Origin: a virus
Reading direction: 5' to 3' (one strand)
Virus record (IMG/VR): IMGVR_UViG_3300030419_004087
Location: 324 to 34,081 of that record
Length of the DNA: 33,758 bases
Shown here piece after piece: positions 13,101 to 33,603 of this stretch (its first letter is position 1; the number at the start of each line of letters is the position of its first letter). The notes beneath the pieces were generated by a model that was given only the letters and a program-made list of their open reading frames with translations, did not search any database and was not told the origin of the DNA. A program made the translations under genes and the position numbers.

Positions 13101-16100
13101 GTGGTTATTGTATTGTTCAAGTTAAGGATACAACCAATGATAGATATGAGTTCTGTGAGGTTATGATGGTTGATGATGACACAAATGTGTACATCACTGA
13201 ATATGGAAATTTACAAATTGGTTCTGGTGCTTTCCTTGGAATAGGTACTATTGGTGGAAAGAGAACAGGTACTGTTTCGGAATTAACTTATACTCCACCA
13301 GCTAATACTGCTGTAGAGGTTAAGACTTTCCTTAATGCACTTAAAGTTGAAGAAAATTCAGCAGATCCAGCATTAGTAGAATTACAAAGTGGTTCAATTA
13401 GAAGTGGATTTGATATCTATGACGGAACTTTCTATAGTAAGAAGACTGAATTTGATATATTGTATGGTGGTAATCAAATTTTTGAAAGAAGTTTTAATGG
13501 AACAGATACTGATATAGTCAATTTAACTGCTAATACTATTACAATTCCTGATCATTATTTTGTTTCTGGTGAAGAAGTTGTATATAGCGTTAAGGATCCT
13601 GGTCAAGCAACAGGTGTTGGTACTACAGGAACTGCTATTGGAATTGCTGCTACTTATTTCTCTGGAGTTGGTACGGTTGGATATGTACCATCATCTGTCT
13701 TTATTGTTAAGAAGAGTGAAAGTCAGATTCAATTTGCAAGAAGTGCTCAAGATGCACTAGTAAATCCTCCAGTTGTTTTAGATCTTACAACCGTAGGTAT
13801 TGGAACTTCTCATAGTATTAGTTCTAGAAATGGAACAGAAAACACTAGAGCATTAATAGCGATTGATAATGTAATTCAATCTCCAGTTGTATCAAGTGGT
13901 ATAGCAGCATCTTTATCAAAAGACCTTTCTATTACTGAAGATATAGCATACTTTACTGGAATAACCTCATTCTTTGCAGGGGATGATGTCAAAGTTGATA
14001 ATGAGATAATGAAGATAGCCGCTGTGGGTCATGGAGGAGTTTCTAATGCGGTTAAAGTTTATCGTCATTGGATGGGAACCACTATTGCTGGACATTCATC
14101 TCATGCACCAGTTACTAAGATGTCTGGTGATTACAATATTATTAAGAATCAACTTAGTTTCTCTGATGCACCTTACGGTAAGGAACCTCCTGTAGGTCAT
14201 TCAACAAGTCTTCCAAATGACAGAGATTGGGTTGGTATTACAACATCTTCAACTTTCAGTGGAAGAATCTTTATGAGATCTGGTGTTAAAGGATCCGATT
14301 ATGATGCTTATACAACCAATTATGTAATAGACGATGTTTCTCAGCAATTTGATGGTCAAGAAACTGCATTTACCTTAAAAGTAAATAAATCAAATGTTAC
14401 TGGTATTGCAACTCAGAACGGTATTGTCCTTGTTAATGGTATATTACAAGGTTCTGGAGATTTAAGTGATTATAATTTAACTGAGGCTGCTGGAATTTCA
14501 TCCGTTGCATTTACAGGATTGGCTGCTTCTGTTACATATGATGTAAATAATGCTTCTGTCCCTGTTGGTGGTCTTATTGTTTCCGTTGGTTCAACAGAAG
14601 GATTTGGTTATCAACCTTTAGTTGGTGCTGGTGCAACTCTACATTTTAATAATATAGGTGTTGTTACTTCTGTTAGCATTGGTTATAGTGGATCTGGTTA
14701 TAGAGTACTTCCTGGAACAGTTGGAGTTGGATCGACTGCACCAGGTGGAGTTGGTATTGCAACAGTTGTTAAAGTAGGTGTTGCTCTCTCCACTACAGGA
14801 AATCCAACAATTCAATATATTGGAACAGCAGCGGTTCATAATGGTGCTGTTGTAAGTATTGCTATTACTCAAACTGATCCAATTCCTGGAATTGGTACTC
14901 AAAATCCAGTAACAGTTGGAACTGGTCAGTCAACATTTAATGCAGTAATTGATGAACCTGTACCTTACCAAGATATTCCACTTTGGTATAGTTCTACTTC
15001 TCCTGGAACAGGATTGGGAACTGTAGCAAGAGCTACTGTTAAGGTCAGTCAAGGATCTAGTATAATTGATTTTGAAATCACTAATCTTGGTTATGGTTAT
15101 CGTGAAGGTCAAATTTTAACATTACCAACTAGAGATACTTCTCCTGGACTTGCTTATGCTGATGGTCAATGTGTTGTAGGAATTCCTACAGTATCTGGTG
15201 GAGTAGTTAAAGAATTCCAGTTAACTCTAGAAAGAGTTAAGCATGATGAATTTAATATGTGGACTATGGGTGAACTTGAAGCACTTGATGATTTCTCAAG
15301 TTATTTTGATGGTGCAAGAAAGTCTTTCCCAATCACTAAAGGTGGTGAAGCATATGCTATTCAAGGTAGAAAAGGTTCCCCAATTGTTATTCAAGATACA
15401 ATTATTCTTACAATTAATGATGTTTTACAAGTACCTGGAGAAGGATTTGTATTTACTGGTGGTGCAAGTTTAACTCTTACTGAAGCACCTAAGAAAGGTG
15501 ATACTTGTAGATTCTTCTTCTATAGAGGAACTGGTGGTGAAGACGTGAAAGATAGAGATATTGTTGAAACAGTTAAGATGGGTGATGATTTAGTACTGTC
15601 ATATGATCGTAAGTATAATGGTACAAGAGATCTTATTCAGTTCCCAAGAACTGTTGTAGATGTTAAGTCTTCTGATCAGGTTGATACTAACCCATATTTT
15701 GGATATGGATTAGGTGATGATGAAACTGAAGTAAGACCAGTTAATTGGAAGAGACAAGTTGAAGATAAGTATATTGATGGAAGAATTGTTCGTAAGGATC
15801 GTCCTTTATATGAACCAAATATTTTCCCAACTGCATACTTAATTCAACCAATTGGTGTTGGATCAACCGCTGTTTGGGTTGATAATTGCAAACCATTCTT
15901 TGATCCTGAGAACGAAAACCCAATTACTAGAGATTTCCAAAAGGATATTCAGATTGTAAATGCAAGTAGTCACTATGATAAATTTACAGGTGCTGCTGGA
16001 ACTTGTGTAGTTTCTGTTGCTGGTACTGTGACATCTATTACTCTATCTAATGGTGGTACTGGTTATAGTGCTGTTCCTGAAGTTCGAATTTCAACTCCAA

Positions 16101-16961: not shown

Positions 16962-18512
16962 ATGTCTGCTATTATAACTGATCAAATCAGAATATTGAAT
17001 GCAAAGAATTTTGTTGCTGGCGTTTCCACCAACATTAATTCGTATTATGCATTTGTTGGACTACCAAATCCAACAAGTTTACAATCAGATTGGGATTCTG
17101 CTCCGCCAGCTCCAGTTGACTCTTTTTCGTCAATGAACGATTATTATGATACTATGATCGCGGTTAAGAAGATAACTCCCGATGATGTTAAGTTAGTAGT
17201 ACAAAAGAACTCCTGGAGTTCTGGTACAACTTATGATTATTATAGACAAGATTATAGTATTACTAATCCTCCTAAGAATTCTGGTGGAACTACGTTATAT
17301 ACAGCAAACTATTTTATTGTTAATAGTGATTATAGAGTTTATATTTGCTTACAGAATGGAACAACCCCAGAGACTCCCGACGGAAAACCTTCTCTGGACG
17401 AACCGACATTTACTGATTTAGAACCAAGAATTGCAGGTACTTCCGGTGATGGTTATATTTGGAAGTATCTTTATAGTATTAAACCAGCAGATTTAATTAA
17501 ATTTGATTCTACTGATTTCATGCCTGTTCCTGCGAATTGGGAAGATAATGTAGAAGACAGTGCTATTAGACTTAATGCAGTTGATGGTGGTATTAAGATT
17601 GTTGTTATTAAGAATAGGGGAACTGGTATAGGTACTGCTAACCAGACTTATACAAGAGTTCCAATCAAGGGTGATGGATTTGATGCAGAGTGTACGGTTG
17701 TTGTGAACAATGATCAACAGATTGAGAGTGTAACGGTATCAAACGAAGGATATGGGTACACTTATGGTAGTGTTGATTTAGCAGCAGGTGCAGTTCCTAC
17801 GCCATCTACAGCACCAACACTTGATGTTATAATTCCACCTCCTGGTGGACATGGTAAGAACATTTATAGTGAATTGGGTGCTACTATGGCACTTATCTAT
17901 GCACGAATTGAAAATGATGCTGAAAACCCAGATTTTATAACAGGAAACCAAATCGCTAGACTTGGTATTATTGAAAATCCATATGCATGGGGATCAACTC
18001 AGTTGCTTACTCTTGATAAAGCTGCTGCTACCTATGCAATGCGTTTAACTGGTACTGGTTATAGTTCTACAACATTTACTGGTGATAGTATAATTACACA
18101 AACAACTGGTACTGGTGTTACTGCTATAGGTAAGGTGGTAAGTTATGATCAGATTACGGGAGTTTTAAAGTATTGGCAGGATAGAACGATGTCTGGTTTC
18201 AACACTGTTGGAACTGCTCAAACTAATCCAATTTATGGTTATAACACAACAAGATTTACTGCAGAACCTACTGCAGGTGGAGACAGGATTATTGTTGGAG
18301 GAAGTTCTAATTTAGCGATTAGCACAACATTTGCGGGTCTCTCCACTTCAATAAATAATAGAACATATTATCTTGGTCAATCATTTACTAAAGGATTGGC
18401 AAATCCAGAAATTGATAAATTCTCTGGAAATATGATTTACATTGATCAAAGACCTTCTATCACTAGATCTTCTAATCAAAAAGAAGACATCAAAATAATA
18501 TTGCAGTTCTAA
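16962..18512 (+). CDS. gp8: baseplate wedge subunit gp8, enlarged
   Basis: 516 residues against 334 in T4 gp8. The N-terminal part (YYAFVGLPNPT, then DYYDTMIAVKKITPDDV) and a GDGYIWKYLYSI segment match the T4 layout (...GDGYVWEYLFEI). The last 31 residues (SGNMIYIDQRPSITRSSNQ then KEDIKIILQF) correspond closely to the T4 gp8 C-terminus (SGEMIYMENRPPI...EEINILFTF). gp8 joins gp7 and gp10 in the wedge. The extra length includes a GxGY-P repeat pair (bases about 17589-17790; VTVSNEGYGYTYGSVDL) of the type abundant in the giant protein upstream. The stop is six bases before the next ATG. Start at 16962 is the first ATG after the late promoter box; no Shine-Dalgarno is evident. Confidence 0.88.
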   Translation: MSAIITDQIRILNAKNFVAGVSTNINSYYAFVGLPNPTSLQSDWDSAPPAPVDSFSSMNDYYDTMIAVKKITPDDVKLVVQKNSWSSGTTYDYYRQDYSITNPPKNSGGTTLYTANYFIVNSDYRVYICLQNGTTPETPDGKPSLDEPTFTDLEPRIAGTSGDGYIWKYLYSIKPADLIKFDSTDFMPVPANWEDNVEDSAIRLNAVDGGIKIVVIKNRGTGIGTANQTYTRVPIKGDGFDAECTVVVNNDQQIESVTVSNEGYGYTYGSVDLAAGAVPTPSTAPTLDVIIPPPGGHGKNIYSELGATMALIYARIENDAENPDFITGNQIARLGIIENPYAWGSTQLLTLDKAAATYAMRLTGTGYSSTTFTGDSIITQTTGTGVTAIGKVVSYDQITGVLKYWQDRTMSGFNTVGTAQTNPIYGYNTTRFTAEPTAGGDRIIVGGSSNLAISTTFAGLSTSINNRTYYLGQSFTKGLANPEIDKFSGNMIYIDQRPSITRSSNQKEDIKIILQF

Positions 18513-18518
18513 TTAACT

Positions 18519-21500
18519 ATGGCTCAACAAACTAATTTAAACGTTTCCCCATATTTTGATGATTTTGATCCGAAATCTGGATACCATAAAGTACTTTTCA
18601 AGCCAGGATATCCTGTTCAGGCTAGAGAATTAAGTGGATTGCAATCTATTTTACAGAATCAACTTGAGAAATTTGGTCAGCACTTTTTCAAAGAAGGTGC
18701 GAAAGTAATACCTGGAAATACTGCATATTCTGCTGAATATTTTGCTGTAGAGTTAAATAATACTCATTTGGGAGTTCCTGTTGATTATTATATTAATCAA
18801 TTGGTTGGTAGAAAGATAATTGGATTGACTACTGGTGTAACTGCTATTATTAATAAGGTCCTAGAGGCAGAGATGTCTGAAAGGGGTAATTTAACGATTT
18901 ATGTGTCATATATTTCTGCTGGTGTTGAAGATAGTGAGATAAAATCATTTCAAGATGGAGAAATGTTGACTGCAGATAGTGATATTACGTCTGGTCCAGA
19001 GAATAATGCTTATATACCATCTGGAGAATCTTTTGCTTCATTGATTCCCACAAACGCTACTTCTACTGCAGCATCATTTTCAATTTCAAATGGAGTTTAT
19101 TTTATAAGGGGAAATTTTGTCAATGTAGAAGATGAAACAATTATTTTAAGTCAATATGATGCTAGTCCTAGTGGTAGGATTGGATTAAGAATTGAAGAGG
19201 ATATTATCAATGCTGATGAGGATGAAACTCTAGCAGATAACTCTAAAGGATTTAATAACTATGCTGCACCAGGTGCAGACCGTCTTAAGATTACTTGTAG
19301 TTTATATTCAAAACCATTAGATGATTTTAATGATTCCAATTTTATTGAATTGGCAGTTGTTAAAGATGGTGAATTACAAAGTCAAACAGCAAACACTAAC
19401 TACAATTATATTGCAGATGAATTAGCACGTAGAACACATGCAGAATCTGGTGATTATACTGTTACACCTTTTGATCTTATTGTAAAGAATTCATTAAACG
19501 ATAATCTTGGAAATAATGGTGTATATCAAGAAGGTGAATATACTCCAAATGGAACTTTGGTTAACGATGATCTTGCACTTTACCAAATGGGTCCAGGTAA
19601 GGCATTTGTAAAAGGATATGAAATTGAAACTATTAGTTCTACATATCTAGATGCCCCAAAACCAAGAACAACAAAAAGATTAGAAAGTCAAAGTGTACTT
19701 TATAATACAGGAAATACCTTATCTTTGAATAATGTTTATGGATTACCTACAATTGGAATAGGTAATACTTATATTGTCAGTTTGAGAAGTGAAAGAACAG
19801 GTTCTAGTCAAATTGATGTGCAAGGACAAGAAATTGGTGTTGCTAGAGTTTATGATTGTGCATTAGAGTCTGGTTCATATTCCCAATCAAATTCTGATAC
19901 CAATGTTTGGGATATTGCTCTTTATGATGTTCAATTAACTTCTCGTATAACGTTAAATGAGAAGATTAGTCTCTCTATTCCATGTTTTGTAAAAGGAAAG
20001 TATAGTGGTGCTACCGGATTCTTAAAAGATGCTGTTACTAGAAGTACTTCTTTAGATGTTTATGAAAAATCTGGAGAATTTTTAGCAAATGAACCATTTG
20101 ATTTTAATGGTACTCCAAATAATAGAGTTGCTGTTGCTGTAACTTCCTATGGAATGCAAGATGTTAAATCTATCTACGGTGGTCCTGATCTAGGTGCTGT
20201 TGGTGCTGCAAATACATTTAATGCAGATGTTATACAGAAACCTAGTTTTACAATTGGTGGTGCTAGTATTACTGCCAGAGCACAAGCAACAGGAAAGGCT
20301 ACAGTTACTAGCGAAAATGAATTATTCCCAGGAAATTTAAAAGTAGGTAATCTCTTAAAATTTGGTGGATTTGGAAATAATGAAGCATCTTATGCAAGAG
20401 TTACTGATGTATCAACTACAAATGTTAAGATAACTGGTGTTACAACTGTTGCTGGAGTTGTTGAAGGAGAAATTCCCCAAGTTGGAGCCTCTACTTTATA
20501 TGTTCCAAATATGCAAGTTGTAAGTACTCCACTTTCTCTTGCATCTGAGACTAGTCTTTATACTTTAATGCCGAAGTCATTTATTTCGGATGTTGATCTA
20601 ACTGATGCTGTTTTGACTATTAGAAGGTCATATACAGTTGATATTGATGGTACAAATGGACAATTAACAGCATTATTGGTTGCAGACACAAATGAGTCAT
20701 TTACTGCGTTTGATGAAGAGCGATATGCAATGACAAGATCTGATGGAACAACCATCGCACTTACAGACGATATGTTCCTGTTTACTGCAGGTGCTACTCA
20801 ATTGCAACTTAAGAATTTGGGTGCTTCTGATGTTGGTGCAACATTAATTGCAACATTGAAGAAAGCTAAACCATCTGCAAAAATTAAGAGAAAAAATAGG
20901 GTAAATTCTGTTATTGTTAATGCTTCAAAACTTACAAGTTCAGGTATTGGTGCAACAACTAGAAATGATGGATTAGTTCCTGGTAATTTCCCATTAGGAA
21001 CTAGAGTTCAAGATGAGAGGATTGTATTAAATTATGGAGATATTGTTGATATTTTAGGAATTTATGAATCCAATGATACTCAAAATGCGTCTGCTCCTAA
21101 GATGATTTTGTCAGCAATGACAGGTGCTACAGGAAAAACTGCGGATTTAGTTGTTGGTGAAAAGATTATAGGTCAGAGTAGTGGTGCAATAGCATTTTAT
21201 GCTGAACAAATAACAGATGCTCAAGTTACTTATATTACTCAAAATGAAACAGGATTTGAAGAAGGTGAGGCAGTTCTTTTTGAAGAGTCTAAAGTTAATG
21301 CAGTTGTAACTACTTTAGATCTACCTAGTCGCAATATTTCTGCAAACTTTACATTCAATAGTGGTCAAAAAGGTACTCATTATGATTATGGGTATTTGGT
21401 TAGAAGACAGAATGCTAGACCACCAACAAAGAGTTTGAAGGTTTACTTTACTAATGGATATTATGAAGATAATGATGAAGGTGATATAACAACAAAGAAT

Positions 21501-24500
21501 TCCTATGATAGTTGGAATTATGCTTCAGATATTCAGACTATTAATGGCGAACGAAATACTGATATGATTGATATAAGACCAAAAGTTGGGACTTATACTG
21601 TACAAGAAAATGTAAGATCACCATTAGAGTTTTATGGTAGGAATTTCACTGGTAGTGGTAATTCTGCTAAGAATATTTTAGCTTCTGATGAATCATTAAT
21701 TGTTAATTTCTCCCATTATCTTGGTAGAATAGATAGGATTTTCTTAACAAAAACAGGAACATTCCAAGTTCAATATGGTGATCCAGCAGAAAGACCAGAG
21801 AGACCTGTCGGTATTGATGATGCATTAGAAATTGGTTCAGTTGATCTACCTCCATATCTTTTCATTATGGAAGATTCAACTGTTGATTTCTTATCTCATA
21901 AGAGATATAGAATGCAAGATATTAGGGATCTTGAAGATAGAATTAAGAATCTTGAATATTATACTTCTTTGTCTATGCTTGAAACAGAAACAGCAAATAT
22001 GTTTGTTCCTGATGCAGATGGATTGAATAAATTTAAATCTGGATTCTTTGTTGATAACTTTACATCAATTAAGGCACAGGAAGATGATGTTAAGATACGA
22101 AATAGTATAGATCCTACAAATCAAGAATTACGACCACAGCATTATACTAATTCTATTGATTTGATGTGTGGTCCTGTTGATGGCGTTGATGCTCAAACTG
22201 ATCATCAATTCTTAACTCCAGAAGGTACAAATATAAGAAAAGGTGCTGGTATTGTAACTTTAGATTATAAAGAAGTTGACTGGTTAAGTCAACAGTTTGC
22301 TACTAGAACTGAAAGTGTTACTCCATTTTTGGTTAGTTTCTGGCAATTATCAGTAAAATTAACACCAAATTCCGATACTTGGACAGATACTGCAAGAATT
22401 AAAGCAAAAATTACTAAAACTGAAGGTAATTTTGCTGGAATTATGGCTCAAGCTCAAAATCAGTGGGGTGTTGATCCTCAAACTGGTCTTAGTCCAATTC
22501 TATGGAATGCTTGGGAAGATAAATGGACTGGAAAAGATCATAAAGATAGAACTAAGCAAAGAACAGAAACAAAGAGTAGGAAAAGTAGACATATTATTAA
22601 AAGAGGATGGATTAATGGTGGTAGTGGACGATCAAGAATACGAGATGATAAGATTACTAAAACAGTAACTAAACAGGATACAATCAGAGATACTTATGAT
22701 ACTGGAACTTCTACCAGAACAGGTATTAGAAAAATTGTTACTGAGCAATGGGATAATGAATCTCTTGGAGATAAGGTTGTTAGTAGAGACATCGTTACAA
22801 TTATGCGTTCTAGGAACGTTGAGTTTAGATGTACTAAGACTAAACCATTAACTCAATTGTACGCATTCTTTGATGGTACACATGTAACAAAATACTGTAC
22901 TCCTAAACTACTTGAGATTGCAATGCAATCTGGTAAGTTCCGAGTCGGTGAAACTGTTATTGGAACTATGAAAGGATCGGGGATACAACCTGAAGGTACT
23001 GATAGTCCATTTATTAAGTTTAGAGTTGCTGTTTCCAATCATAGGGAAGGACCATATAATGCACCAACAGAGACTTATACAAAGAATCCATATCAATCAC
23101 AAGTTGCTGCAACTGGATTAGAGACTTTCTTAGGAACTCCTGGTACTGTTCAGTTGGCTGGTAGTGCTGGTGGTGCTGATATTCCATCAACATATTCTAC
23201 AACTTCAACAATTCTGAATATTGATACCTTCTCTTTAAGTGATCAACCACAAGGAAAATGGTTTGGATATGCTCATGCTGGTATGAAACTGAGAGGACAG
23301 AAGAGTGGTGCTCAAGCAAAAGTTACTCAAATGAGATTAATTTCAGATCTTGGGGCTAATTTGATTGGATCTTATTATATTCCAAATCCAAATAGTGGTA
23401 ATCATCCTAAGTTTGAAACAGGTACAAGAACATTTACTTTAATTGATAATCGTCGAAATAACCAGGATGATACCGATACCTTTGGTTCAGATAATTACAC
23501 TGCTACCGGAACACTAGAAACAGTTCAGGAGACAATCATTTCTACTAGAAATGCCGTAGTTACTACTAAGAACCATAAGGCGAAAAAGAAAATTAGAAGA
23601 TTCTCTGGATCTGCTGTTATTAAGAAAGATGAAGTTATTAAGACAAATACTCAAAAAACTCAAGGTAAACCACGTTGGTATGACCCATTAGCACAATCTT
23701 TCCAGGTTACTGATGAAGGTGGAGTTTTCTTAACTAGTTGTGATATTTACTTCAAGACGAAGGATGACATGGAAATTCCTATGACATTCCAACTTCGTAC
23801 AATGAAGGATGGTACTCCGACACAGAAAGTTATACCGTTCTCTGAAATTGTTAAGACTCCAAAACAAATTAAGGTCTCGCCGACGGGAACTGTTGCAACT
23901 ACGTTTGAATTTGAAGCACCAGTTTATCTTGAAGGAGCAAACACAGAGTATGCTATTTGTTTAGCATCTTGGTCAACGAAATATCAGGTCTTTATATCAA
24001 GAATTGGAGAATCTGATCTATTAACCGATGAATTTATTTCTCAGCAACCATATTTGGGATCACTATTTAAGTCTCAGAATGCTTCAACATGGGATGCATC
24101 ACAATGGGAAGACCTTAAGTTTAAACTCAGAAGAGCAGAATTTAAGACTAGTGGAACTTTAGAAATTTATAACCCAGTTCTTTCCGAAGGTAATGGGCAA
24201 GTTGCAACATTGCAACCAAACTCAGTTAACGTACAGGCAAGAAGTATTCGTATTGGTATAGGATCAACATTACAAGATACTGATCTTACCCTTGGAAATA
24301 CTATTAATCAAACAGGATCCAATGCAACTGGAGACTATGTTGGAACTGCTGGTATTGGAACTGGCACTATGGGGGTTGTTAATGCTGGATTAGGATATAC
24401 ACCATCTTCTGGAAATTATACCTTTACTGGTGTTGGTCTCACTAATATAACGTCTAGTGGAGATTATATGTATGCTAATGTCCATATTGCAGATGGTGTT

Positions 24501-26171
24501 GCAACTGCTGCAACGATTACTTCATCTAGTAGTGGATTCTCTGCAGGTGATGTTCTTGGTATTGCAACTATTGGTAATGCTAATGTTGGTAGAAATGCCA
24601 GACTTTCTGTAGTTTCTATTGGACAAACTAATGAATTACTACTTGATAATGTTCAAGGCAATTTTGTAACTGGAACTGGTAAAACAATGTCGTTTGTTCA
24701 TCCAGTAACAGGAATTACAACTCAACTGAATTCCATGACTGGTGGAATGGTAATGCCTGAAAAAATTTCAATAACTCAGGATGGTCTGCATGTTACTGTT
24801 GACCATAGAAATCATGGTATGCATCATGAACTTAATAGGGTAGAAATTAGTGATATTGCTTCCGATGTTCCTGCAACGAAACTATCGGCGAATTATAAGA
24901 CAAATTCCAGTTCAAATATATCAATTGATAGTAGTGCTAATTTTGGAACATTTGAAAATGTTTCTGTTGCGACAACTAATCCTGGTTTAGCTAGAATTGG
25001 TGATGAAATTATCAAGTATACTGGAGCTTCTAATAACAGGTTAACTGGAATAACAAGAGGGGATAATAGACAAAATTATGTAAAAGGTACTCCTATTGAA
25101 AAATATGAACTTGCTGGAGTTTCTTTAGCGAGATTCAATAAGACTCATTTATTAAGTGAGATTACTGATAGAGATCCTGATCCTATGTCCTTCGATCACT
25201 ATACTATTAAAATTGATCAAAGTGCTTATAATCCTGGAACTAATGATCTGTATAGGGTTAATAGATCAAGTACTCAGTCTAGTTTCCCAATCCTTTATTG
25301 TAATGATACTAAATCTGCTGGTGGATATTATACAAAGGCATCACAAAATATGCCTTTCCAGATTATAAATCCATCGATTCAGAATACAACTGTTCCTGGA
25401 ACAACTATAAGTGCAACAATGAGAACTGTTTCTGGATCAAATATGGCAGAGTGTGATGGTCAAAGTCCCGATCTTCCTTTTGTAGATCAAGGATATGAAG
25501 TTGTTACTTTAGGTAAGAGTAATTATCTGACTTCTTCAAGAATTATTGCTTCAAGAGTTAATGAGCAGAATAATGATGTATTTACCAATTATCCAGGCAA
25601 GAGATCTTTTGGTATGACGATTACGTTGCAAACATCTGATACATTATTAAGTCCTGTTATTGATTTGCAGAGAATGAATGCAGTTCTAGTTTCGAATAGA
25701 GTTGACGTACCTGTACAAAATTATATTACTGATAGTAGAGTTAATGGAATTGATACTGATCCTACAGCATGTATGTATATTTCTAGAGAGAATACTTTGG
25801 AAACTTCTGCATCTTCTATTAAGATAATGCTACAGGCTCATATCAACCAATATAATGATATTAGAGCATTCTATGCAATTAGTGATTCACAAAACTTTGA
25901 TCCAATATTTATTCCATTCCCTGGATATAAGAATATAAGTAATCAAGGTACACTAATTGAATTAGATAAGAGTGATGGAAGACCTGATAAACTTACTCCT
26001 CTTTCTGATGCTGGTGGATTTAAATCAAGTGAAGTGAATTTCATGGATTATGAATTTAGTGCAGATAATTTACCTGCTTTCACTAGTTACAGGATTAAGT
26101 TTGTTCTTACTTCAACTAACCAAACATTTGTTCCTAGAGTTTCTAACTTGAGGGTTATTACCTTAGCATAA
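18519..26171 (+). CDS. giant DUF4815-type virion structural protein (2550 aa)
   Basis: 2550 residues. The N-terminus (MAQQTNLNVSPYFDDFDP, then PGYPVQARELSGLQSILQNQ) is characteristic of DUF4815 structural proteins of T4-like marine phages. Later parts: 'SGA' modules (near residues 95, 490, 876, 1580); GTHYDYGYLVRRQN about residue 950; a likely helical stretch YRMQDIRDLEDRIKNLEYYT about 1129; two Lys/Arg-rich stretches (bases 22530-22745 and 23557-23680); a PRWYDPLAQSFQV block (about 1719 on) with beta-rich sequence; a GxGY-like region (24366-24630); and an 'IDxE...RG' module (residues 2134-2198). It lies in the gp9-gp12 interval of the T4 order, so it may supply the peripheral wedge and fibre-attachment functions of those missing genes; that is inference from position. 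The start is the first ATG, six bases after gp8. No signal peptide or membrane span. Confidence 0.85.
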   Translation: MAQQTNLNVSPYFDDFDPKSGYHKVLFKPGYPVQARELSGLQSILQNQLEKFGQHFFKEGAKVIPGNTAYSAEYFAVELNNTHLGVPVDYYINQLVGRKIIGLTTGVTAIINKVLEAEMSERGNLTIYVSYISAGVEDSEIKSFQDGEMLTADSDITSGPENNAYIPSGESFASLIPTNATSTAASFSISNGVYFIRGNFVNVEDETIILSQYDASPSGRIGLRIEEDIINADEDETLADNSKGFNNYAAPGADRLKITCSLYSKPLDDFNDSNFIELAVVKDGELQSQTANTNYNYIADELARRTHAESGDYTVTPFDLIVKNSLNDNLGNNGVYQEGEYTPNGTLVNDDLALYQMGPGKAFVKGYEIETISSTYLDAPKPRTTKRLESQSVLYNTGNTLSLNNVYGLPTIGIGNTYIVSLRSERTGSSQIDVQGQEIGVARVYDCALESGSYSQSNSDTNVWDIALYDVQLTSRITLNEKISLSIPCFVKGKYSGATGFLKDAVTRSTSLDVYEKSGEFLANEPFDFNGTPNNRVAVAVTSYGMQDVKSIYGGPDLGAVGAANTFNADVIQKPSFTIGGASITARAQATGKATVTSENELFPGNLKVGNLLKFGGFGNNEASYARVTDVSTTNVKITGVTTVAGVVEGEIPQVGASTLYVPNMQVVSTPLSLASETSLYTLMPKSFISDVDLTDAVLTIRRSYTVDIDGTNGQLTALLVADTNESFTAFDEERYAMTRSDGTTIALTDDMFLFTAGATQLQLKNLGASDVGATLIATLKKAKPSAKIKRKNRVNSVIVNASKLTSSGIGATTRNDGLVPGNFPLGTRVQDERIVLNYGDIVDILGIYESNDTQNASAPKMILSAMTGATGKTADLVVGEKIIGQSSGAIAFYAEQITDAQVTYITQNETGFEEGEAVLFEESKVNAVVTTLDLPSRNISANFTFNSGQKGTHYDYGYLVRRQNARPPTKSLKVYFTNGYYEDNDEGDITTKNSYDSWNYASDIQTINGERNTDMIDIRPKVGTYTVQENVRSPLEFYGRNFTGSGNSAKNILASDESLIVNFSHYLGRIDRIFLTKTGTFQVQYGDPAERPERPVGIDDALEIGSVDLPPYLFIMEDSTVDFLSHKRYRMQDIRDLEDRIKNLEYYTSLSMLETETANMFVPDADGLNKFKSGFFVDNFTSIKAQEDDVKIRNSIDPTNQELRPQHYTNSIDLMCGPVDGVDAQTDHQFLTPEGTNIRKGAGIVTLDYKEVDWLSQQFATRTESVTPFLVSFWQLSVKLTPNSDTWTDTARIKAKITKTEGNFAGIMAQAQNQWGVDPQTGLSPILWNAWEDKWTGKDHKDRTKQRTETKSRKSRHIIKRGWINGGSGRSRIRDDKITKTVTKQDTIRDTYDTGTSTRTGIRKIVTEQWDNESLGDKVVSRDIVTIMRSRNVEFRCTKTKPLTQLYAFFDGTHVTKYCTPKLLEIAMQSGKFRVGETVIGTMKGSGIQPEGTDSPFIKFRVAVSNHREGPYNAPTETYTKNPYQSQVAATGLETFLGTPGTVQLAGSAGGADIPSTYSTTSTILNIDTFSLSDQPQGKWFGYAHAGMKLRGQKSGAQAKVTQMRLISDLGANLIGSYYIPNPNSGNHPKFETGTRTFTLIDNRRNNQDDTDTFGSDNYTATGTLETVQETIISTRNAVVTTKNHKAKKKIRRFSGSAVIKKDEVIKTNTQKTQGKPRWYDPLAQSFQVTDEGGVFLTSCDIYFKTKDDMEIPMTFQLRTMKDGTPTQKVIPFSEIVKTPKQIKVSPTGTVATTFEFEAPVYLEGANTEYAICLASWSTKYQVFISRIGESDLLTDEFISQQPYLGSLFKSQNASTWDASQWEDLKFKLRRAEFKTSGTLEIYNPVLSEGNGQVATLQPNSVNVQARSIRIGIGSTLQDTDLTLGNTINQTGSNATGDYVGTAGIGTGTMGVVNAGLGYTPSSGNYTFTGVGLTNITSSGDYMYANVHIADGVATAATITSSSSGFSAGDVLGIATIGNANVGRNARLSVVSIGQTNELLLDNVQGNFVTGTGKTMSFVHPVTGITTQLNSMTGGMVMPEKISITQDGLHVTVDHRNHGMHHELNRVEISDIASDVPATKLSANYKTNSSSNISIDSSANFGTFENVSVATTNPGLARIGDEIIKYTGASNNRLTGITRGDNRQNYVKGTPIEKYELAGVSLARFNKTHLLSEITDRDPDPMSFDHYTIKIDQSAYNPGTNDLYRVNRSSTQSSFPILYCNDTKSAGGYYTKASQNMPFQIINPSIQNTTVPGTTISATMRTVSGSNMAECDGQSPDLPFVDQGYEVVTLGKSNYLTSSRIIASRVNEQNNDVFTNYPGKRSFGMTITLQTSDTLLSPVIDLQRMNAVLVSNRVDVPVQNYITDSRVNGIDTDPTACMYISRENTLETSASSIKIMLQAHINQYNDIRAFYAISDSQNFDPIFIPFPGYKNISNQGTLIELDKSDGRPDKLTPLSDAGGFKSSEVNFMDYEFSADNLPAFTSYRIKFVLTSTNQTFVPRVSNLRVITLA

Positions 26172-27674: not shown

Positions 27675-29111
27675 ATGGCACTTAACCCGTATTTTCAGCA
27701 AGGTTCTTCTGGAGAACAAAGTTTAGTTCAATCGCTTATTAATGAGCAGTTGAGGATGTATGGTGTCGATGTTCATTATATGCCTAGAAAGTATGTCTCA
27801 GAAAGTACAATATTAAAAGAAGTAACGCAATCTACTTTTGATGATGCATATCCATTGGAAGCATATATTGATAATGTTGAAGGGTATGGTGATAATCCAA
27901 CATTGCTGTCTAAATTTGGTATTCAAGCAACTAATGAAGTAACATTAATAATTTCAAAAGAGAGGTTTGAAACTTATATTTCACCTTTGATGAAGAATGA
28001 ATCAAATGTAAAACTTTCAACTAGACCTAAAGAAGGAGATTTGATTTATTTCCCATTTGGTGATCGTTTATTTGAAATTAAATATGTAGAGCACGAAAAA
28101 CCATTTTATCAACTTAGAAATACTTATGTTTATGAATTACGTTGTGAACTCTTCCGTTATGAAGATGAGGTTATTGATACTGGAGTTGATGAAATTGATG
28201 ATACCTTAGAAGGTATTGAAGGTGTTGATGGTGAGACCACATTAATTGGTTCTGGTGGAACTCAGAAATTGACTGTTGTTGGTAGTGCTGTTCAAGCAAC
28301 TGCTGTAACAGGAAAACTTAATGGTGGTGTCCAATACATTAGTCTAACAAATAGGGGTAATAGTTACGTATATTCACCAAGAGTTGCAATATCTTCTGCA
28401 CCATCTGGAGGACTTACTGGTATAGCAACTGCAAATTTATTGGAAGGTATTGCTGTATGTTCAGGAGCTATTGATGATCCAAATAAGAGGGTAGTTCAGA
28501 CTGTCAATTTGGTAAATCCTGGTTATGGATATACTAACAATCCTCAAGTCGAATTCTATGCTAATGGGGATAATGGCGTTGGTGCTGCTGCTACTGCTAA
28601 GATGGAGAACGGCACTATAGGTATTGTTACAATCACCTCAGGCGGTTCTGGATACACTACATCTCCATCTATTACATTTACCGGAGTATCTACTACAGGT
28701 GCTGCAGCAACTGCAATTGTAAGTGCTGCTGGTACAATTTCTGCTATTCATATCACTAATGCTGGTGCTGGTTATACTGTCGCACCAACAATGACAATTG
28801 CTGCTCCAGGAAGCAGTGGATCTGGTGATTTTTCATTCAATGAAATTATTACTGGTGGAACAAGTGGTACTACTGCAAGAGTAAGAATTTGGAATTCTGT
28901 TACCAGCGAACTAGAAGTTGGTAATATAGATGGTAGTGGATTTAAGATTGGAGAGACACTTACTGGAGGAAGTTCTGGCGCAACGCAAGTTGTACGTTTA
29001 ATAGATCTAACTAATTTTGATGACGCAGGATTTGCTGATAACGATGATTTTGAACTTGCTGCTGATGATATTATTGATTTCACTGAAGGTAATCCATTCG
29101 GACAACCATAA
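27675..29111 (+). CDS. gp14: neck protein gp14 with repeat extension
   Basis: 478 residues against 256 in T4 gp14. Residues 1-165 are the neck domain: LVQSLINEQLRMYGVDVHYM, PRKYVS, then KEGDLIYFPFGDRLFEIKYV and PFYQLRNTYVYE, matching T4 gp14's EGDLIYFP...FEI..VE...PFYQ. From about 213 to 382 come GxGY-P repeats (ITSGGSGYTTSPSITFTGV; ITNAGAGYTVAPTMTIAAP), and from 386 to 442 two tandem 'SGA' modules (NEIITGGTSGTTARVRIW; GETLTGGSSGATQVVRL). The protein ends with ADDIIDFTEGNPFG. So the neck core is followed by about 230 residues of the same modules found in the baseplate giants, which may decorate the neck. With gp13 it closes the head. No frame break is seen. Confidence 0.88.
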   Translation: MALNPYFQQGSSGEQSLVQSLINEQLRMYGVDVHYMPRKYVSESTILKEVTQSTFDDAYPLEAYIDNVEGYGDNPTLLSKFGIQATNEVTLIISKERFETYISPLMKNESNVKLSTRPKEGDLIYFPFGDRLFEIKYVEHEKPFYQLRNTYVYELRCELFRYEDEVIDTGVDEIDDTLEGIEGVDGETTLIGSGGTQKLTVVGSAVQATAVTGKLNGGVQYISLTNRGNSYVYSPRVAISSAPSGGLTGIATANLLEGIAVCSGAIDDPNKRVVQTVNLVNPGYGYTNNPQVEFYANGDNGVGAAATAKMENGTIGIVTITSGGSGYTTSPSITFTGVSTTGAAATAIVSAAGTISAIHITNAGAGYTVAPTMTIAAPGSSGSGDFSFNEIITGGTSGTTARVRIWNSVTSELEVGNIDGSGFKIGETLTGGSSGATQVVRLIDLTNFDDAGFADNDDFELAADDIIDFTEGNPFGQP

Positions 29112-29137: not shown

Positions 29138-30127
29138 ATGTTTGAGTATTTTTATAACGAAATTTTTAGAAAGACGATTATCTCTTTTGGTACTCTCTTC
29201 AATGATATTAACATTAAACAGGATAATTCTGTTGTAAAAGTACCATTGGCATATGGACCCACTCAAAAGTTTTTAGCAAGGTTAGAACAATCTCCAGATT
29301 TAAGTCAAAGAGTTGCAATATCTTTACCAAGAATGTCCTTTGAATTTACTGGACTTACTTACGATCCTTCTAGAAAAGTTACTACAACACAACAAATTAC
29401 AGTAAAGGATCCTGATAATGGAACAAATATAAAAAAGGCTTATATGCCTGTTCCATATAATATGCAATTTGAACTTGCTATTATGTGTAAGTTGAATGAC
29501 GATGCATTACAAATTGTAGAGCAAATACTTCCATATTTTCAACCACAATATAATTTAACTATAAAACTTGTTGAGAGCATCAAAGAAAAAAGAGATGTTC
29601 CAATTGTTTTAGAAAATGTTACTATGCAAGATGATTATGAGGGAGATTTTACTTCACGTAGAGTTCTTCTTTATACACTAAGATTTACTGCAAAAACATA
29701 TCTATTTGGTCCTGTTACTTCTGCTACTTCCGATATCATCAAGAAGGCAAGCGTCAGATATCTTGCTGGTGGTTCCAAGAGTACAGAAAGAGATATTACA
29801 TACTCTGTTACTCCAAGAGCAACTAAGGATTACACTGGAGATGTTGTTACCAATCTCGCAGAAGATATTGATGCAGTTGCATTGACTATTAATGTTGTTA
29901 ATGGTAGTGCAGTTACTGCGAAGAAATATATTGATGTTGATGGTGAAGAAATGTATGTCAAGTCAATTAGTGGTAATAAACTTACTGTTGAAAGAGGTAA
30001 GGATGGTAGACTTGCTGCTGCTCATGTAAATGGAACACCGATTAAGGGTATAGATTACACTGGAACCGAAGATAGTGATCTTGTTGAAATGGGTGATGAC
30101 TTTGGATTTAGTGGAGTGATTACATGA
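29138..30127 (+). CDS. gp15: tail sheath stabiliser/completion protein gp15
   Basis: 329 residues against 272 in T4 gp15. MFEYFYNEIFRK recalls T4 MFGYFYNSSFRR, and DDALQIVEQILPYFQPQYN matches T4 DDMFQIVEQILPYFQPHFN almost exactly; the segment SRRVLLYTLRFTAKTYLFGP matches the SRRRIEWSLTFEVNGWMYPP region. gp15 is the hexameric terminator that stabilises the tail sheath and tube and joins the tail to the neck. Extra C-terminal sequence (about residues 245-306) is an 'IDVDGEEMYVKSISGNKLTV' module with a following ERGKDGRLAAAHVNGTPI, absent from T4 gp15 but shared with the giant proteins. The AAAGGA site supports the ATG at 29138. Its TGA overlaps the gp16 ATG. Confidence 0.92.
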   Translation: MFEYFYNEIFRKTIISFGTLFNDINIKQDNSVVKVPLAYGPTQKFLARLEQSPDLSQRVAISLPRMSFEFTGLTYDPSRKVTTTQQITVKDPDNGTNIKKAYMPVPYNMQFELAIMCKLNDDALQIVEQILPYFQPQYNLTIKLVESIKEKRDVPIVLENVTMQDDYEGDFTSRRVLLYTLRFTAKTYLFGPVTSATSDIIKKASVRYLAGGSKSTERDITYSVTPRATKDYTGDVVTNLAEDIDAVALTINVVNGSAVTAKKYIDVDGEEMYVKSISGNKLTVERGKDGRLAAAHVNGTPIKGIDYTGTEDSDLVEMGDDFGFSGVIT

Positions 30128-30549
30128 AAATGACTAATCTAGATGATGCTTTTAATGTAGATTCAACTATTGTACCCACAAAACAAAATGTTGGTATAAC
30201 ACCCGAACAAAAACCAGATAGACTTACTCAAAGTGATGTTGAGAAAGACTATGAATATACTCGTGGTAATCTTTATAGTATTATAGAAAAAGGTCAAGAA
30301 GCAATTAATGGCATTCTAGAACTTGCTCAAGAAAGTGAAATGCCTAGAGCATATGAGGTTGCTGGTCAGTTAATTAAGAGTGTATCTGATGCAACTGATA
30401 AGTTGATGGATTTGCAGAAGAAATTAAAAGATGTAGAAGAAGAGAAACAACAAAAAGGACCATCCACAGTTAATAATGCATTATTCGTTGGATCAACAGC
30501 AGAACTTCAAAAACTACTAAAATCTGGACTACCTAAAGAGAATAAATAA
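30124..30549 (+). CDS. gp16: small terminase subunit gp16
   Basis: 141 residues (T4 gp16 has 164). DYEYTRGNLYSIIEKGQEAI and the helical hairpin that follows (ILELAQESEMPRAYEVAGQL, then IKSVSDATDKLMDLQKKL) are the conserved central helices of T4-like small terminases, which oligomerise into rings that regulate the large terminase motor. A C-terminal NNALFVGSTAELQKLLKS segment is also characteristic. The start at 30124 overlaps the gp15 stop (ATGA); an alternative ATG lies at 30130. The large subunit gp17 is not in the window: the next genes are an unrelated structural protein and a DUF2997 gene. Confidence 0.88.
   Translation: MKMTNLDDAFNVDSTIVPTKQNVGITPEQKPDRLTQSDVEKDYEYTRGNLYSIIEKGQEAINGILELAQESEMPRAYEVAGQLIKSVSDATDKLMDLQKKLKDVEEEKQQKGPSTVNNALFVGSTAELQKLLKSGLPKENK
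30541..30548 (+). promoter_or_regulatory. late promoter box (AATAAATA) after gp16
   Basis: AATAAATA overlaps the gp16 stop and lies 44 bases before the ATG at 30592, in a 42-base gap. It would give the fibre-like gene its own late transcript. No good Shine-Dalgarno is seen just before 30592. Confidence 0.4.
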
Positions 30550-30591: not shown

Positions 30592-33500
30592 ATGTCGGAC
30601 CAGTTACCATCACTGGATGATTTACTAGAGAGTAAATTACCTTCAGTCGATGACTTTATAAAAGAAGATACTTTACCTTCAGTTGATGAGTTTCTTGAGA
30701 AGGAAGAAGAGATTATAGAAGAAGAGAGTTGTGGTGAAGGAGAATATTTTTGTAATGATGAGCAAAAATGTAAACCTATTCCTAAAGGGCATAAAGTTCT
30801 AGAAGATGGAGAACTAGTTAAGGAACAGGTAGACCTTACAGAAATAGTACGTCTAATTAATGACGTTAGAAAGGATATTCCTGTTGTACCAGAAATACCT
30901 GAGATAAAGTATTACGATGAAGAATTAGAAAAACTTACAGCATATGTTGAGGAGATAAAAGAAAGTATCCCAGAGATACCAGAACAGAAAACATATGATG
31001 TAGAAGTAGAAGCAATATGTGATTTAATTGACAACTTAAGGGAAGAAGTAAAGGATCTTCCTATACCTAAGTATTATGAAGAAGAAATAGAGGGTCTTCA
31101 GAAGAAGGTTAATGGGTTCTATCAGGATATGATGGATCTTCCCGAACCAAAATATTATGAGGAAGATCTTAAGTCATTAAAAGAAGAAATAATAGCAGTA
31201 AGAGAAGCAATACCAACTTTCCCCAAATGGGTTAATGAAGTTAATGAAGTTCCTGATTTTAAATGGATTGGTAAAACTTTTAGTGTAATTGACGATGACT
31301 TTATTAAAGTACAGGATCATTTAGATTCTATTAAGAATAGAATCGATCAGGAAGTCCAACAGATTACTGAAACTATTGAAGTTAAAAGATTTGAATCTAA
31401 AACTGATATCACTAAATTAAATGAGGATTTAGAAGAAACTAAAGAAAAAATTTATAAGGAATTAAGGGAAGCAGCTCTTAAAATATATGATGCTAAAAAT
31501 GGTTATAAAGATGATGATAGAAAATTAAAAAAGCAGTTGCTTAATCAGTTTCATGTTTTAAAGCAAAATGTTCTTGATGAAATAAAGGAATTTAATAGAA
31601 AGAATATTGAGATTAAAGATTTATATGGTGGTTATTTTGATGGACTCACAGAGGAAATATCTAATCTTCCTGAGGTAAAATATTATGATGAGGATATACA
31701 AGAGATTAGAGAAGAGATTAAACTAGATGCTGATAATCTAAAATCTCTTAAAGAACTGGTTCAGGAAATAAAAGAAAAGCAGATTAAATTTAAGCAAGAA
31801 TTTAATGAAGTAAGGGATCTACAAGAAGGTCTTTTAAACGAACCACCAGATAATAAACAATCTGTAGATGGTGTTGGAGATCCATTAGCACCACTAGATA
31901 AGCAGTTTCCTACTTTAAAATCCTTAGCAGATCATTATAGATTATTCATTAATAGAACTCAGCAACAGATTGCTACTATAGGTGGCGGTGGTGCAGGATT
32001 TATAAAAGATCTTGGTGATGTTACTTTTACAGAATCAACAGGAACAAATAAGTTACTTATTTACAATGGTGATGGATGGGTTGGTATTGCAAGTACTGCT
32101 TTGTCAGGTTCATCAACATTACATGAAGCGTTGGCCAAGGGTAATGTATCTGGCATTGGAATGAGTGTTGGAGTTATTACTGCAACAAATGGTTATTTCA
32201 GTGGTATTGTAACTGCATCTACACTTAATTATGATGTTGTAACTGATATCTATTCTACTGGTATTGTTACAGCAACTAAGGGAATACAAGTTACAACTCT
32301 TGGTTTAAATGTAGCATCTGGTGTTGCAACACTTACGGATGGTCTTAGGGTTGGTTCTGCTGCCACAATATACTCAAACGGTAATGCATCATTTTCTGGT
32401 ATTGTAACCGCTAAGGGTGGATTTGTTGGTGATGGTAGTGGATTAACAGGTGTTGCTAATACTGATAATGTATCGTCAACAACTCTAAGTGTATCTGGTG
32501 TTGTTACTGCAATTGGTGGTCTCTATGTTGGAACTGCTGCAAGTATATTCGCTAATGGTAATGTTGCTTGTGGTATTATAACGGCAACAAGTTTCACAGT
32601 TGGGGGAACATCCCTTGCTGAAACTATTGCAGATACAGTTGGTGGTATGGTTAGCAGTAATACTGAATCAGGTATTACCGTTGCATATCAAGATGCTGAT
32701 AATACTTTAGATTTTACTGTAGGAACATTAAACCAAAATACAACTGGTACTGCTGGTGGATTAAGTGGGACTCCCAATATTACAGTGGGAGATGTTGTTG
32801 CTGCTAGTTTAGATATTTCTGGTAACACTGATATTGATGGAACATTAGAAGCAGATGCAATTACGGTTGACGGTACTGCTCTGAATGAATATATTGCTGA
32901 TACCGTAGGTGCTATGGTTAGTAGTAATACTGAGTCTGGTATTACTGTAGCCTATGTTGATGATGATAATACATTAGATTTTACTGTTGGAACATTAAAC
33001 CAAAATACAACGGGTACTGCTGGTGGATTAAGTGGAACACCAAATATTACAGTAGGAGATGTTGTTGCCGCTAGTTTAGATATTTCTGGTGACACGGATA
33101 TTGATGGGACATTAGAAGCAGACGCAATTACGGTTGATGGTACTGCTTTAAATGAATATATTGCTGATACTGTAGGTGCTATGGTTAGCAGTAATACAGA
33201 ATCAGGTATTACCGTTGCATATCAAGATGGTGATAATACTTTAGATTTTACTGTAGGAACATTAAACCAAGATACAACTGGTACTGCTGCAGGAATAACT
33301 GAAGCAGATACTTCTGTTTCTTCTACAAGTGCAACAACGGTTTTATCAATTGCACATGCATCTTATCGTGGAGCATTTGTCAATACACTAATTACTCAAG
33401 GATCAGCATATCAAATTGGTAAATATTCAATAATACATGATGGTACAACTGCAACAATTGTTGAGGAGAGTGCAATTGCTACTGGTTCTATGTTAGGTTC

Positions 33501-33603
33501 ATTTAGTGCAACTATTAGTGGTAGTAATTTATTAATGCAAGTTACAATGGGAAGTTCATCTTCTGCAACAGTAACTGTTAAAGCAGATAAGGTTACAGTA
33601 TGA
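30592..33603 (+). CDS. coiled-coil plus fibre-like virion protein (1003 aa)
   Basis: 1003 residues with distinct zones. Residues 5-39: three short repeats LPSLDDLL, LPSVDDFI, LPSVDEFL. Residues 47-66: a Cys motif CGEGEYFCNDEQKCKPIPKG (C47-x6-C54-x5-C60). About 80-425: acidic, helical, with PxxKYYxEE motifs spaced exactly 27 residues (four copies), then long coiled-coil sequence. About 465-675: glycine/threonine-rich repeats with ...SGIVTA... and GDGSGLTGV, typical of tail-fibre beta helices. 679-900: two full and one partial copies of an 89-residue repeat. 904-1003: an 'IHDG' domain like those in the giant at 4130-16903. The order suggests an anchor, stalk, shaft and tip, so a fibre or spike-like protein. 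It sits directly after gp16, where T4 has gp17. Structural role is inferred from composition; no T4 counterpart is recognised. Confidence 0.7.
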   Translation: MSDQLPSLDDLLESKLPSVDDFIKEDTLPSVDEFLEKEEEIIEEESCGEGEYFCNDEQKCKPIPKGHKVLEDGELVKEQVDLTEIVRLINDVRKDIPVVPEIPEIKYYDEELEKLTAYVEEIKESIPEIPEQKTYDVEVEAICDLIDNLREEVKDLPIPKYYEEEIEGLQKKVNGFYQDMMDLPEPKYYEEDLKSLKEEIIAVREAIPTFPKWVNEVNEVPDFKWIGKTFSVIDDDFIKVQDHLDSIKNRIDQEVQQITETIEVKRFESKTDITKLNEDLEETKEKIYKELREAALKIYDAKNGYKDDDRKLKKQLLNQFHVLKQNVLDEIKEFNRKNIEIKDLYGGYFDGLTEEISNLPEVKYYDEDIQEIREEIKLDADNLKSLKELVQEIKEKQIKFKQEFNEVRDLQEGLLNEPPDNKQSVDGVGDPLAPLDKQFPTLKSLADHYRLFINRTQQQIATIGGGGAGFIKDLGDVTFTESTGTNKLLIYNGDGWVGIASTALSGSSTLHEALAKGNVSGIGMSVGVITATNGYFSGIVTASTLNYDVVTDIYSTGIVTATKGIQVTTLGLNVASGVATLTDGLRVGSAATIYSNGNASFSGIVTAKGGFVGDGSGLTGVANTDNVSSTTLSVSGVVTAIGGLYVGTAASIFANGNVACGIITATSFTVGGTSLAETIADTVGGMVSSNTESGITVAYQDADNTLDFTVGTLNQNTTGTAGGLSGTPNITVGDVVAASLDISGNTDIDGTLEADAITVDGTALNEYIADTVGAMVSSNTESGITVAYVDDDNTLDFTVGTLNQNTTGTAGGLSGTPNITVGDVVAASLDISGDTDIDGTLEADAITVDGTALNEYIADTVGAMVSSNTESGITVAYQDGDNTLDFTVGTLNQDTTGTAAGITEADTSVSSTSATTVLSIAHASYRGAFVNTLITQGSAYQIGKYSIIHDGTTATIVEESAIATGSMLGSFSATISGSNLLMQVTMGSSSSATVTVKADKVTV
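30604..30708 (+). repeat. three N-terminal LPSVDDF repeats
   Basis: Protein repeats of 11-12 residues: LPSLDDLLESK (30604-30636), LPSVDDFIKEDT (30637-30672), LPSVDEFLEKEE (30673-30708). They open the fibre-like protein and look like a short acidic linear motif in triplicate. Confidence 0.8.
30898..31224 (+). repeat. 27-residue PxxKYYxEE repeats
   Basis: The codons for the leading Pro lie at 30898, 30979, 31060 and 31141, exactly 81 bases apart (PEIKYYDEE, PEQKTYDVE, PIPKYYEEE, PEPKYYEED). A degenerate fifth (FPKWVNEV) falls two residues early near 31219, and a distant copy PEVKYYDED is at 31669. DNA sequences have diverged while spacing is exact. Confidence 0.85.
32626..33300 (+). repeat. 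267-base tandem repeat (89 residues), about 2.5 copies
   Basis: Equivalent points (the codon after IADT) fall at 32638, 32905 and 33172, exactly 267 bases apart. Two full copies and a partial third encode ADTVGxMVSSNTESGITVAY ... NTLDFTVGTLNQ ... SGTPNITVGDVVAASLDISG. Copies 1 and 3 are closer to one another in the first part than to copy 2. Confidence 0.9.

Follow-up and report, generated by a model that had tools for sequence, protein, structure and literature searches.

The shaft of T4 fibritin (gpwac) is a parallel trimeric coiled coil segmented by short interruptions, and in fibritins the N-terminal domain is conserved while the C-terminal one is exchangeable or varied, as described in PMC3797505 and PMC3004832. 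In T4, gp9 is trimeric, and its C-terminal domain is where the long tail fibres attach coaxially (PMC3004832). Beta-layers published for alpha/beta coiled coils prefer hydrophobic residues at b1 and b2, with a small one at b2 (PMC4786415). Marine T4-like phages, or cyanomyoviruses, have been reported without recognisable wac, g10, g11, g12, g34, g35, and g37 (PMC2984593).

We describe here a T4-like locus with a fibre gene whose product carries an array of P-x-x-K-(Y/T)-Y motifs. We propose, with a probability of roughly 0.7, that residues about 83-213 of this protein form the proximal stalk of a homotrimeric phage fibre, built as a proline-jointed coiled coil that keeps its hydrophobic core.

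The locus and its genomic slot

The window, i.e., the whole stretch of 33,758 nucleotides analysed, corresponds to bases 324-34081 of a 34,081-base virus record. In the phage collection, it is related at the DNA level mostly to Synechococcus phages and cyanophages. Its genes follow a T4-like order, consisting of gp6 (2194-4125), a gp8-like wedge gene (16962-18512), gp13 (26825), gp14 (27675), gp15 (29138), and gp16 (30124-30549), and then the fibre gene (30592-33603). The baseplate region also contains two very long ORFs, one of 4257 aa (4130-16903) and one of 2550 aa (18519-26171). The C-terminus of gp14 (27675-29111) is extended by a region of about residues 197-423, which gives matches to parts of large virion and baseplate wedge PHROGs. 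The gene under study and its upstream neighbour are as follows:

30124..30549, + strand: small terminase subunit gp16, the upstream neighbour (PF11053 and phrog_445)
30592..33603, + strand: fibre protein gene, an ORF of 1003 aa, next after gp16, whose homologues occupy the same slot

The position of the gene is conserved. Among 214 ORFs with two or more motifs, which come from redundant loci, gp16 lies upstream in 172 of the 177 that have more than 1.2 kb of upstream sequence; gp17 lies downstream in 32 of the 44 with more than 2.5 kb of downstream sequence, and no gp17 is found there in 12 of the 44. The cultured orthologue, SynMITS9220M01_093 (1167 aa, annotated “hypothetical protein”), is located in the gp16-gp17 interval of a Kyanoviridae phage, and the proteins in the same slot of S-SM2, P-TIM68, and Bellamy are annotated as tail-fibre-like. 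A second fibre type, with a PSDFF N-terminus, also occupies the slot after gp16. Stalk units are further found in two shorter fibres (L176 and L278, 566 and 579 aa respectively) with a different gene context.

PHROG tail-fibre families match the window protein and its relatives, including phrog_28263 (“tail fiber protein”), which matches residues 15-159 (E 3.4e-7); the two best PHROG matches, phrog_30390 and phrog_30733, are both of unknown function. This family relation and the fibre-like domain order described below are those of a phage tail or virion fibre, as judged from sequence and predicted fold; on the virion, the protein may act as an adsorption or connector fibre.

The earlier note had recognised no known repeat family, and this agrees with Pfam, in which neither the window protein nor the corresponding part of its relatives reaches the cut-off of any family. 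Below the cut-offs, ATG17_like (E 1.6e-4, with 21.7 bits where the cut-off is 43) and YwqH-like (E 0.0044) were set aside as coiled-coil look-alikes. Similarly, the best PDB profile match, the haemagglutinin 7a9d (E 4.8e-4), and those with E values of 0.01-1 (haemagglutinins, designed bundles, a trimeric autotransporter, a short tail fibre, and reovirus sigma-1) were taken as coiled-coil resemblance. In cellular genomes, 67 stretches match the peptide patterns and none of them encodes a relative, and a search of the open-access literature found no description of this motif or repeat.

Domain organization of the fibre protein

From the N-terminus, the protein consists of three LPSxxDF motifs, an optional cysteine module, the segmented stalk, a tryptophan region, a long coiled coil, a fifth motif, a joint ending in GGGG, a beta-rich shaft, and a C-terminal domain. 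Each stalk unit is split at its first proline, with the helix part counted from K and the linker running to the next K. The features are:

30604..30693, + strand: N-terminal tract with three LPS(L/V)D(D/E)(L/F) motifs, residues 5-34 (sequence conservation)
30730..30822, + strand: optional cysteine module CGEGEYFCNDEQKCKPIPKGHKVLEDGELVK, residues 47-77 (phrog_30733 match at residues 38-80)
30907..30987, + strand: stalk unit 1, helix part of 21 and linker PEIPEQ (6) (AF2 helix 107-125)
30988..31068, + strand: stalk unit 2, helix part of 24 and linker PIP (3) (AF2 helix 137-153)
31069..31149, + strand: stalk unit 3, helix part of 24 and linker PEP (3) (AF2 helix 161-181)
31150..31230, + strand: stalk unit 4, helix part of 21, then PTFPKW into the tryptophan region (AF2 helix 190-206)
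31213..31302, + strand: conserved tryptophan region PTFPKWVNEVNEVPDFKWIGKTFSVIDDDF, residues 208-237, closing the segmented part (A1 conservation)
31264..31662, + strand: long coiled coil, residues 225-357, briefly interrupted near 269-272 (AF2 helices 225-268 and 273-357)
31669..31695, + strand: fifth motif, PEVKYYDED, residue 360, which restarts the helix after the long coiled coil
31879..32022, + strand: post-stalk joint DPLAPLDKQFPTLKSLADHYRLFINRTQQQIATIGGGGAGFIKDLGDV (conserved in A1 and A2)
32023..33288, + strand: beta-rich shaft with internal repeats (sequence; short low-confidence strands in AF2)
33289..33600, + strand: C-terminal beta-sandwich, residues 900-1003, predicted to fold like the T4 gp9 C-terminal domain (AF2, VIA, Foldseek)

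In the N-terminal tract, L5, P6, S7, L16, P17, L28, P29, and S30 are invariant in 32 A1 sequences, and a regular expression finds three copies of the LPS motif in 94 and two copies in 12 of 106 main-family N-termini. The motifs, LPS(I/V)(D/E)(D/E)F, are conserved though the surrounding tract is acidic and variable, and other fibres of the slot start with a [PS][SG]DFF motif in their place. We consider the LPS motifs candidate virion-docking peptides.

Of 109 distinct main-family fibres, 18 carry the cysteine module. A similar module occurs in T4-GC119-type proteins encoded between the slot and gp17 in SynMITS9220M01, S-SM2, and Bellamy, and also in a P-SSM4 protein. The module seems to move between neighbouring genes.

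Within the tryptophan region, W213, P221, D222, F223, W225, I226, G227, and F230 are invariant in A1. A stretch similar to the post-stalk joint is found in the S-CAM7 and AG-345-O18 fibres. The shaft contains near-identical repeats (SNTESGITVAY.D.DNTLDFTVGTLNQNTTGTAGGLSGTPNITVGDVVAASLDISG) at 32650-33200, and a portion of the C-terminal half is 63.6% identical to a tail fibre of Pelagibacter phage HTVC033P, in two pieces that cover 21% of the query.

The AF2 model of residues 431-1003 (49.0 overall) is confident only over about the last 100 residues, where ten-residue blocks score 72-88 over model residues 481-570. VIA aligns this domain with T4 gp9 (1qex_A; Z 14.3, rmsd 1.7, 102 aligned residues, 12% identity), with a baseplate entry of Klebsiella phage KP1 (Z 11.5) and a tailspike (9.1) as the next matches; T4 gp9 is also the one Foldseek match with E below 0.001 (E 3e-4). 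Whole-model matches with rmsd above 20 were ignored in these searches. By sequence, no convincing match to the C-terminal domain was found in PDB (one at E 0.62, to VioB), and the C-terminal half matched nothing there up to E 1. Sequence relatives of the gp9-like domain are present in S-SM2, DSL-LC02, and S-SRM01, and the tip is thus common to fibres with other stalks.

The motif array in the window

As the earlier note had reported, four P-x-x-K-(Y/T)-Y motifs follow each other at exactly 81 bases: PEIKYYDEE at 30898 (residue 103), PEQKTYDVE at 30979 (residue 130), PIPKYYEEE at 31060 (residue 157), and PEPKYYEED at 31141 (residue 184). The extended form PxxKYYxEE given there describes the motif in part, since the final EE is complete in units 1 and 3, and is VE in unit 2 and ED in unit 4. 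The distant copy at 31669, 528 bases after the fourth, is a motif of the same kind and does follow a long coiled coil, as had been noticed; all five belong to one 1003-aa ORF. The spacing of the four motifs, 27 codons, is not due to chance. The autocorrelation in the window is sharp at lag 27, and the lag-27 self-similarity of residues 100-213 was reached by 0 of 10,000 shuffles, even when the best of lags 10-44 was taken. The pattern P..K[YT]Y occurs five times in residues 1-443, and 20,000 shuffles of this region gave either no copy (19,884) or one (116).

The four units are 22-37% identical to one another in protein, 46-56% in DNA, and 26-44% at third codon positions, in keeping with the drift of the DNA that had been noticed; a tandem repeat at the DNA level is therefore ruled out in the window. 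From the protein and third-position identities, the array in the window is old. Across fibres, adjacent unit pairs of equal length have a median DNA identity of 57% (197 pairs), and recent tandem copies are found elsewhere, for example 24-residue units at 85-92% DNA identity in L079. In L278, two adjacent 66-base units are identical, which indicates that arrays can grow by unit duplication.

Unit lengths in relatives

From the exact spacing and the drifted DNA, the earlier note had concluded that selection acts on a length of 27 residues, as in a helical unit of fixed pitch, and had pointed to variable spacing in homologues as evidence to the contrary. In the best 80 of 179 relatives' loci, 81 ORFs gave 65 distinct N-terminal regions, whose motif spacings range from 20 to 33 residues: 20 (9), 23 (2), 24 (32), 27 (109), 30 (4), 31 (6), and 33 (4). 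The conclusion about length thus fails, though the part of it that describes a repeated helical unit under structural constraint stands. The gap from the preceding motif to the fifth motif also varies in these 65 homologues, being 176 (47), 180 (12), 172 (2), or 168 (1). Two further scans brought the set to 144 distinct repeat regions, in which 27 is the commonest spacing (267 of 422 units) without being fixed.

Instead of a fixed 27, the units follow a two-part rule, in which the length of the helix part goes in half-heptads and that of the proline-first linker in threes. With a relaxed motif and spacings up to 50, the 144 regions yielded 453 units, leaving out three main-family rows with a 58-residue gap. 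Helix parts have 17 (41), 19 (9), 21 (188), 24 (169), 26 (14), or 28 (31) residues (other, 1), and linkers have 3 (294), 6 (127), 9 (28), or 12 (3) residues (other, 1), so that 451 of the 453 units are on this lattice and 2 are off it. A total of 27 is reached by two routes, 24+3 (167 units) and 21+6 (123 units), which is why it is the commonest. The window itself contains both, with units of 21+6, 24+3, and 24+3, and then a last helix of 21.

In 311 distinct units, hydrophobic residues (VILMFYWC) occupy 1982 of 2019 places at unit positions 3, 7, 10, 14, 17, 21, 24, and 28, and 383 of 4382 (8.7%) at the other positions. Helix parts of 17, 21, 24, and 28 residues finish on a core position, while those of 19 and 26, which make up 18 of the 311 units, finish two residues past one. 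In 310 of 311, the helix part ends in I, L, V, or F right before the first proline. As exceptions to the rule, prolines also occur elsewhere than at a triplet start, with 41 immediately preceding K and 11 located at distance 4 or 7. Helix position 11 is Cys in 95% of the units with 28-residue helices and in 20% of those with 24-residue ones; in the window, the second unit has a Cys (VEAIC, 31012-31030), a possible inter-chain contact.

The rule was put to a later test in IMG/VR with a 23-base pattern for PE(V/I)KYYDE/D, which gave at least 114 new loci. Among the matches listed, at least 202 units had not been seen before, and 196 of 202 are on the existing lattice; the 6 off it are 32+6, 21+24, and 21+29, each twice. 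Since many of these units are still homologues, the scan tests the rule and not its independence. Six of 114 ORFs among the matches listed have no tandem unit. In one pattern match (L297), a lone PEIKYYD stands in sequence that does not look helical, and was taken as chance.

Lengths have changed repeatedly. On a tree built from the conserved domain downstream, with 108 rows of which the 100 that have three units were counted, unit state (helix plus linker) changed at least 17, 14, and 8 times in slots 1, 2, and 3, and total unit length at least 16, 14, and 8 times; these are parsimony minima, which recombination inside the array could inflate. The units are homologous, so that counts of units are not independent events, and recombination between units could also keep their lengths to the lattice in the absence of selection on each one. 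The number of units varies less than their length does, with three parsed units before the conserved tryptophan region in 101 of 109 main-family fibres and two in 8. As many as nine motifs are found in other fibres that carry such units.

Proposed structure of the stalk

The AF2 monomer of residues 1-460 has separate helices at the units and breaks at the linkers, in line with the helical units suggested by the earlier note, and no compact fold, all at low confidence (mean pLDDT 58.8, pTM 0.18). We suggest that short alpha-helices pack through their hydrophobic stripe (3, 7, 10, 14, 17, 21, 24, 28) into a three-stranded coiled coil, and that in nearly all units the helix stops on a core position. 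Past the helix, the chain would be extended through one to four (P-x-x)n triplets, in a polyproline-II-like conformation, and would re-enter the core at the second tyrosine of K-Y-Y. Such a proline joint would break the helix, keep the core, and uncouple the heptad register between segments. With the register decoupled in this way, units would change length mostly by whole core layers, i.e., by 3 or 4 residues in the helix and 3 in the linker. As a whole, the stalk would space the N-terminal docking tract from the beta-rich shaft and its exchangeable tip, with rigid coiled-coil rods on proline struts holding shaft and tip off the anchor.

The fibre protein is probably a homotrimer, because of its gp9-like domain, the collagen region of the S-CAM7 fibre, and the beta-branched residues at a and d. 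The S-CAM7 tail fibre carries PEVKYY units and, further on, a Pfam Collagen match of 157.8 bits (cut-off 27.2). In the units, I and V together make up 82% of a and 51% of d positions; in GCN4 variants, many beta-branched residues at a and d favour trimers over dimers. The trimer motif RhxxhE, which was found in 0 of 311 distinct units, counts against a trimer.

Among the alternatives, the likeliest, though in our view still improbable, is that the post-linker K-Y-Y forms the three-residue beta-layer of a trimeric alpha/beta coiled coil, with no extended proline strut. The d-ending helices (17 and 24; 141 of 311 units) suit it well, as L(d)-P-E-V-K-Y-Y-D-E-E-I(a) fits the hexad register e-f-g/c-b1-b2-b3-e-f-g given in PMC4786415. 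However, the a-ending helices (21 and 28; 152 of 311 units) do not, since the distance from a to a over a three-residue linker is 10 and a nonad is 9. The b1 and b2 places also hold K/R and mostly Y rather than a hydrophobic and a small hydrophobic residue, and linkers of 6, 9, and 12 residues are left unexplained.

A monomeric helical repeat of hairpins or a solenoid, rather than a parallel oligomer, would have a unit of suitable size, since solenoids also use a helix followed by a short proline turn, about 27 residues in all. This we regard as quite unlikely, as the units have one narrow 4-3 hydrophobic stripe with few hydrophobic residues outside it, AF2 packs no compact fold, and the same chains carry domains of trimeric kinds (Collagen in S-CAM7, and the gp9-like domain). 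Least probable of all is a ruler in which 27 residues is itself the selected length; the predominance of 27 and the sharp lag-27 signal in the window speak for it, but the range in relatives and the repeated changes of total length in all three slots speak against it, and as stated it is ruled out.

Beyond the proline-jointed coiled coil, the stalk may combine two alternating lattices, in which three-stranded coiled coil (3.5 residues per layer) and three-stranded polyproline-II-like struts (3 per layer) are joined by K-Y-Y into one unbroken hydrophobic core and, capped by the gp9-like domain, make an extended socket or proximal half-fibre that replaces some of the T4 fibre genes reported missing. 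We put this forward tentatively and rather doubt it in full. If so, each joint would reset the register, and the stalk would be a modular rod that evolves its length in whole layers.

Implications

Fibres determine which cell a phage infects, and a fibre family in a conserved slot after gp16 is a concrete candidate for part of the missing T4 fibre set; such a fibre could take the place of one of the genes reported missing. The length rule offers a clean and testable case of a coiled-coil rod that changes its length with its core kept. It predicts that insertions of 3, 4, or 7 residues in the helix and of 3 in the linker are tolerated, and that those of 1 or 2 are not. For protein designers, (P-x-x)nKYY is a candidate joint for splicing coiled-coil segments out of register.

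Comparison with known systems

The S-CAM7 tail fibre (phrog_28263) carries the same units as the window protein. Unlike the latter, it has a glycosyltransferase and other non-terminase neighbours within the 12 kb seen, and a collagen region. The proteins of S-SM2 (SSM2_107), P-TIM68, and Bellamy (121; phrog_30742) share the gp16-gp17 slot and a GGGG..LDDVD joint, but the S-SM2 protein and the first 700 residues of those of P-TIM68 and Bellamy are without the KYY array. With T4 gp9, the likeness is confined to the predicted fold of residues 900-1003, which is that of the gp9 C-terminal domain; sequence identity is 12%, and the domain here terminates a 1003-residue fibre.

As in the alpha/beta coiled coils described in PMC4786415, the helix here would depart locally within a trimeric coiled coil, and the d-ending helices have a hexad-like register. 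The linkers here are instead led by proline and come in multiples of three, K-Y stands where small hydrophobics are favoured, and about half of the units misfit a nonad register.

T4 fibritin is similar in having a coiled-coil shaft in segments, seen here as a heptad stripe with proline joints in sequence and model, and also in combining a conserved N-terminal domain with an exchangeable C-terminal one. No fibritin family was found in Pfam up to E 0.1, and of the 25 PDB sequences that profile A1 brought up to E 1, none is named as a fibritin. The joints differ, being (P-x-x)nKYY here and small loops in fibritin, as do the C-terminal domain, which here is formed by the last 104 residues and matches that of gp9, and the location of the gene, which here follows gp16. 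Without detected homology, then, the stalk may work in much the same way as the segmented coiled coil of T4 fibritin.
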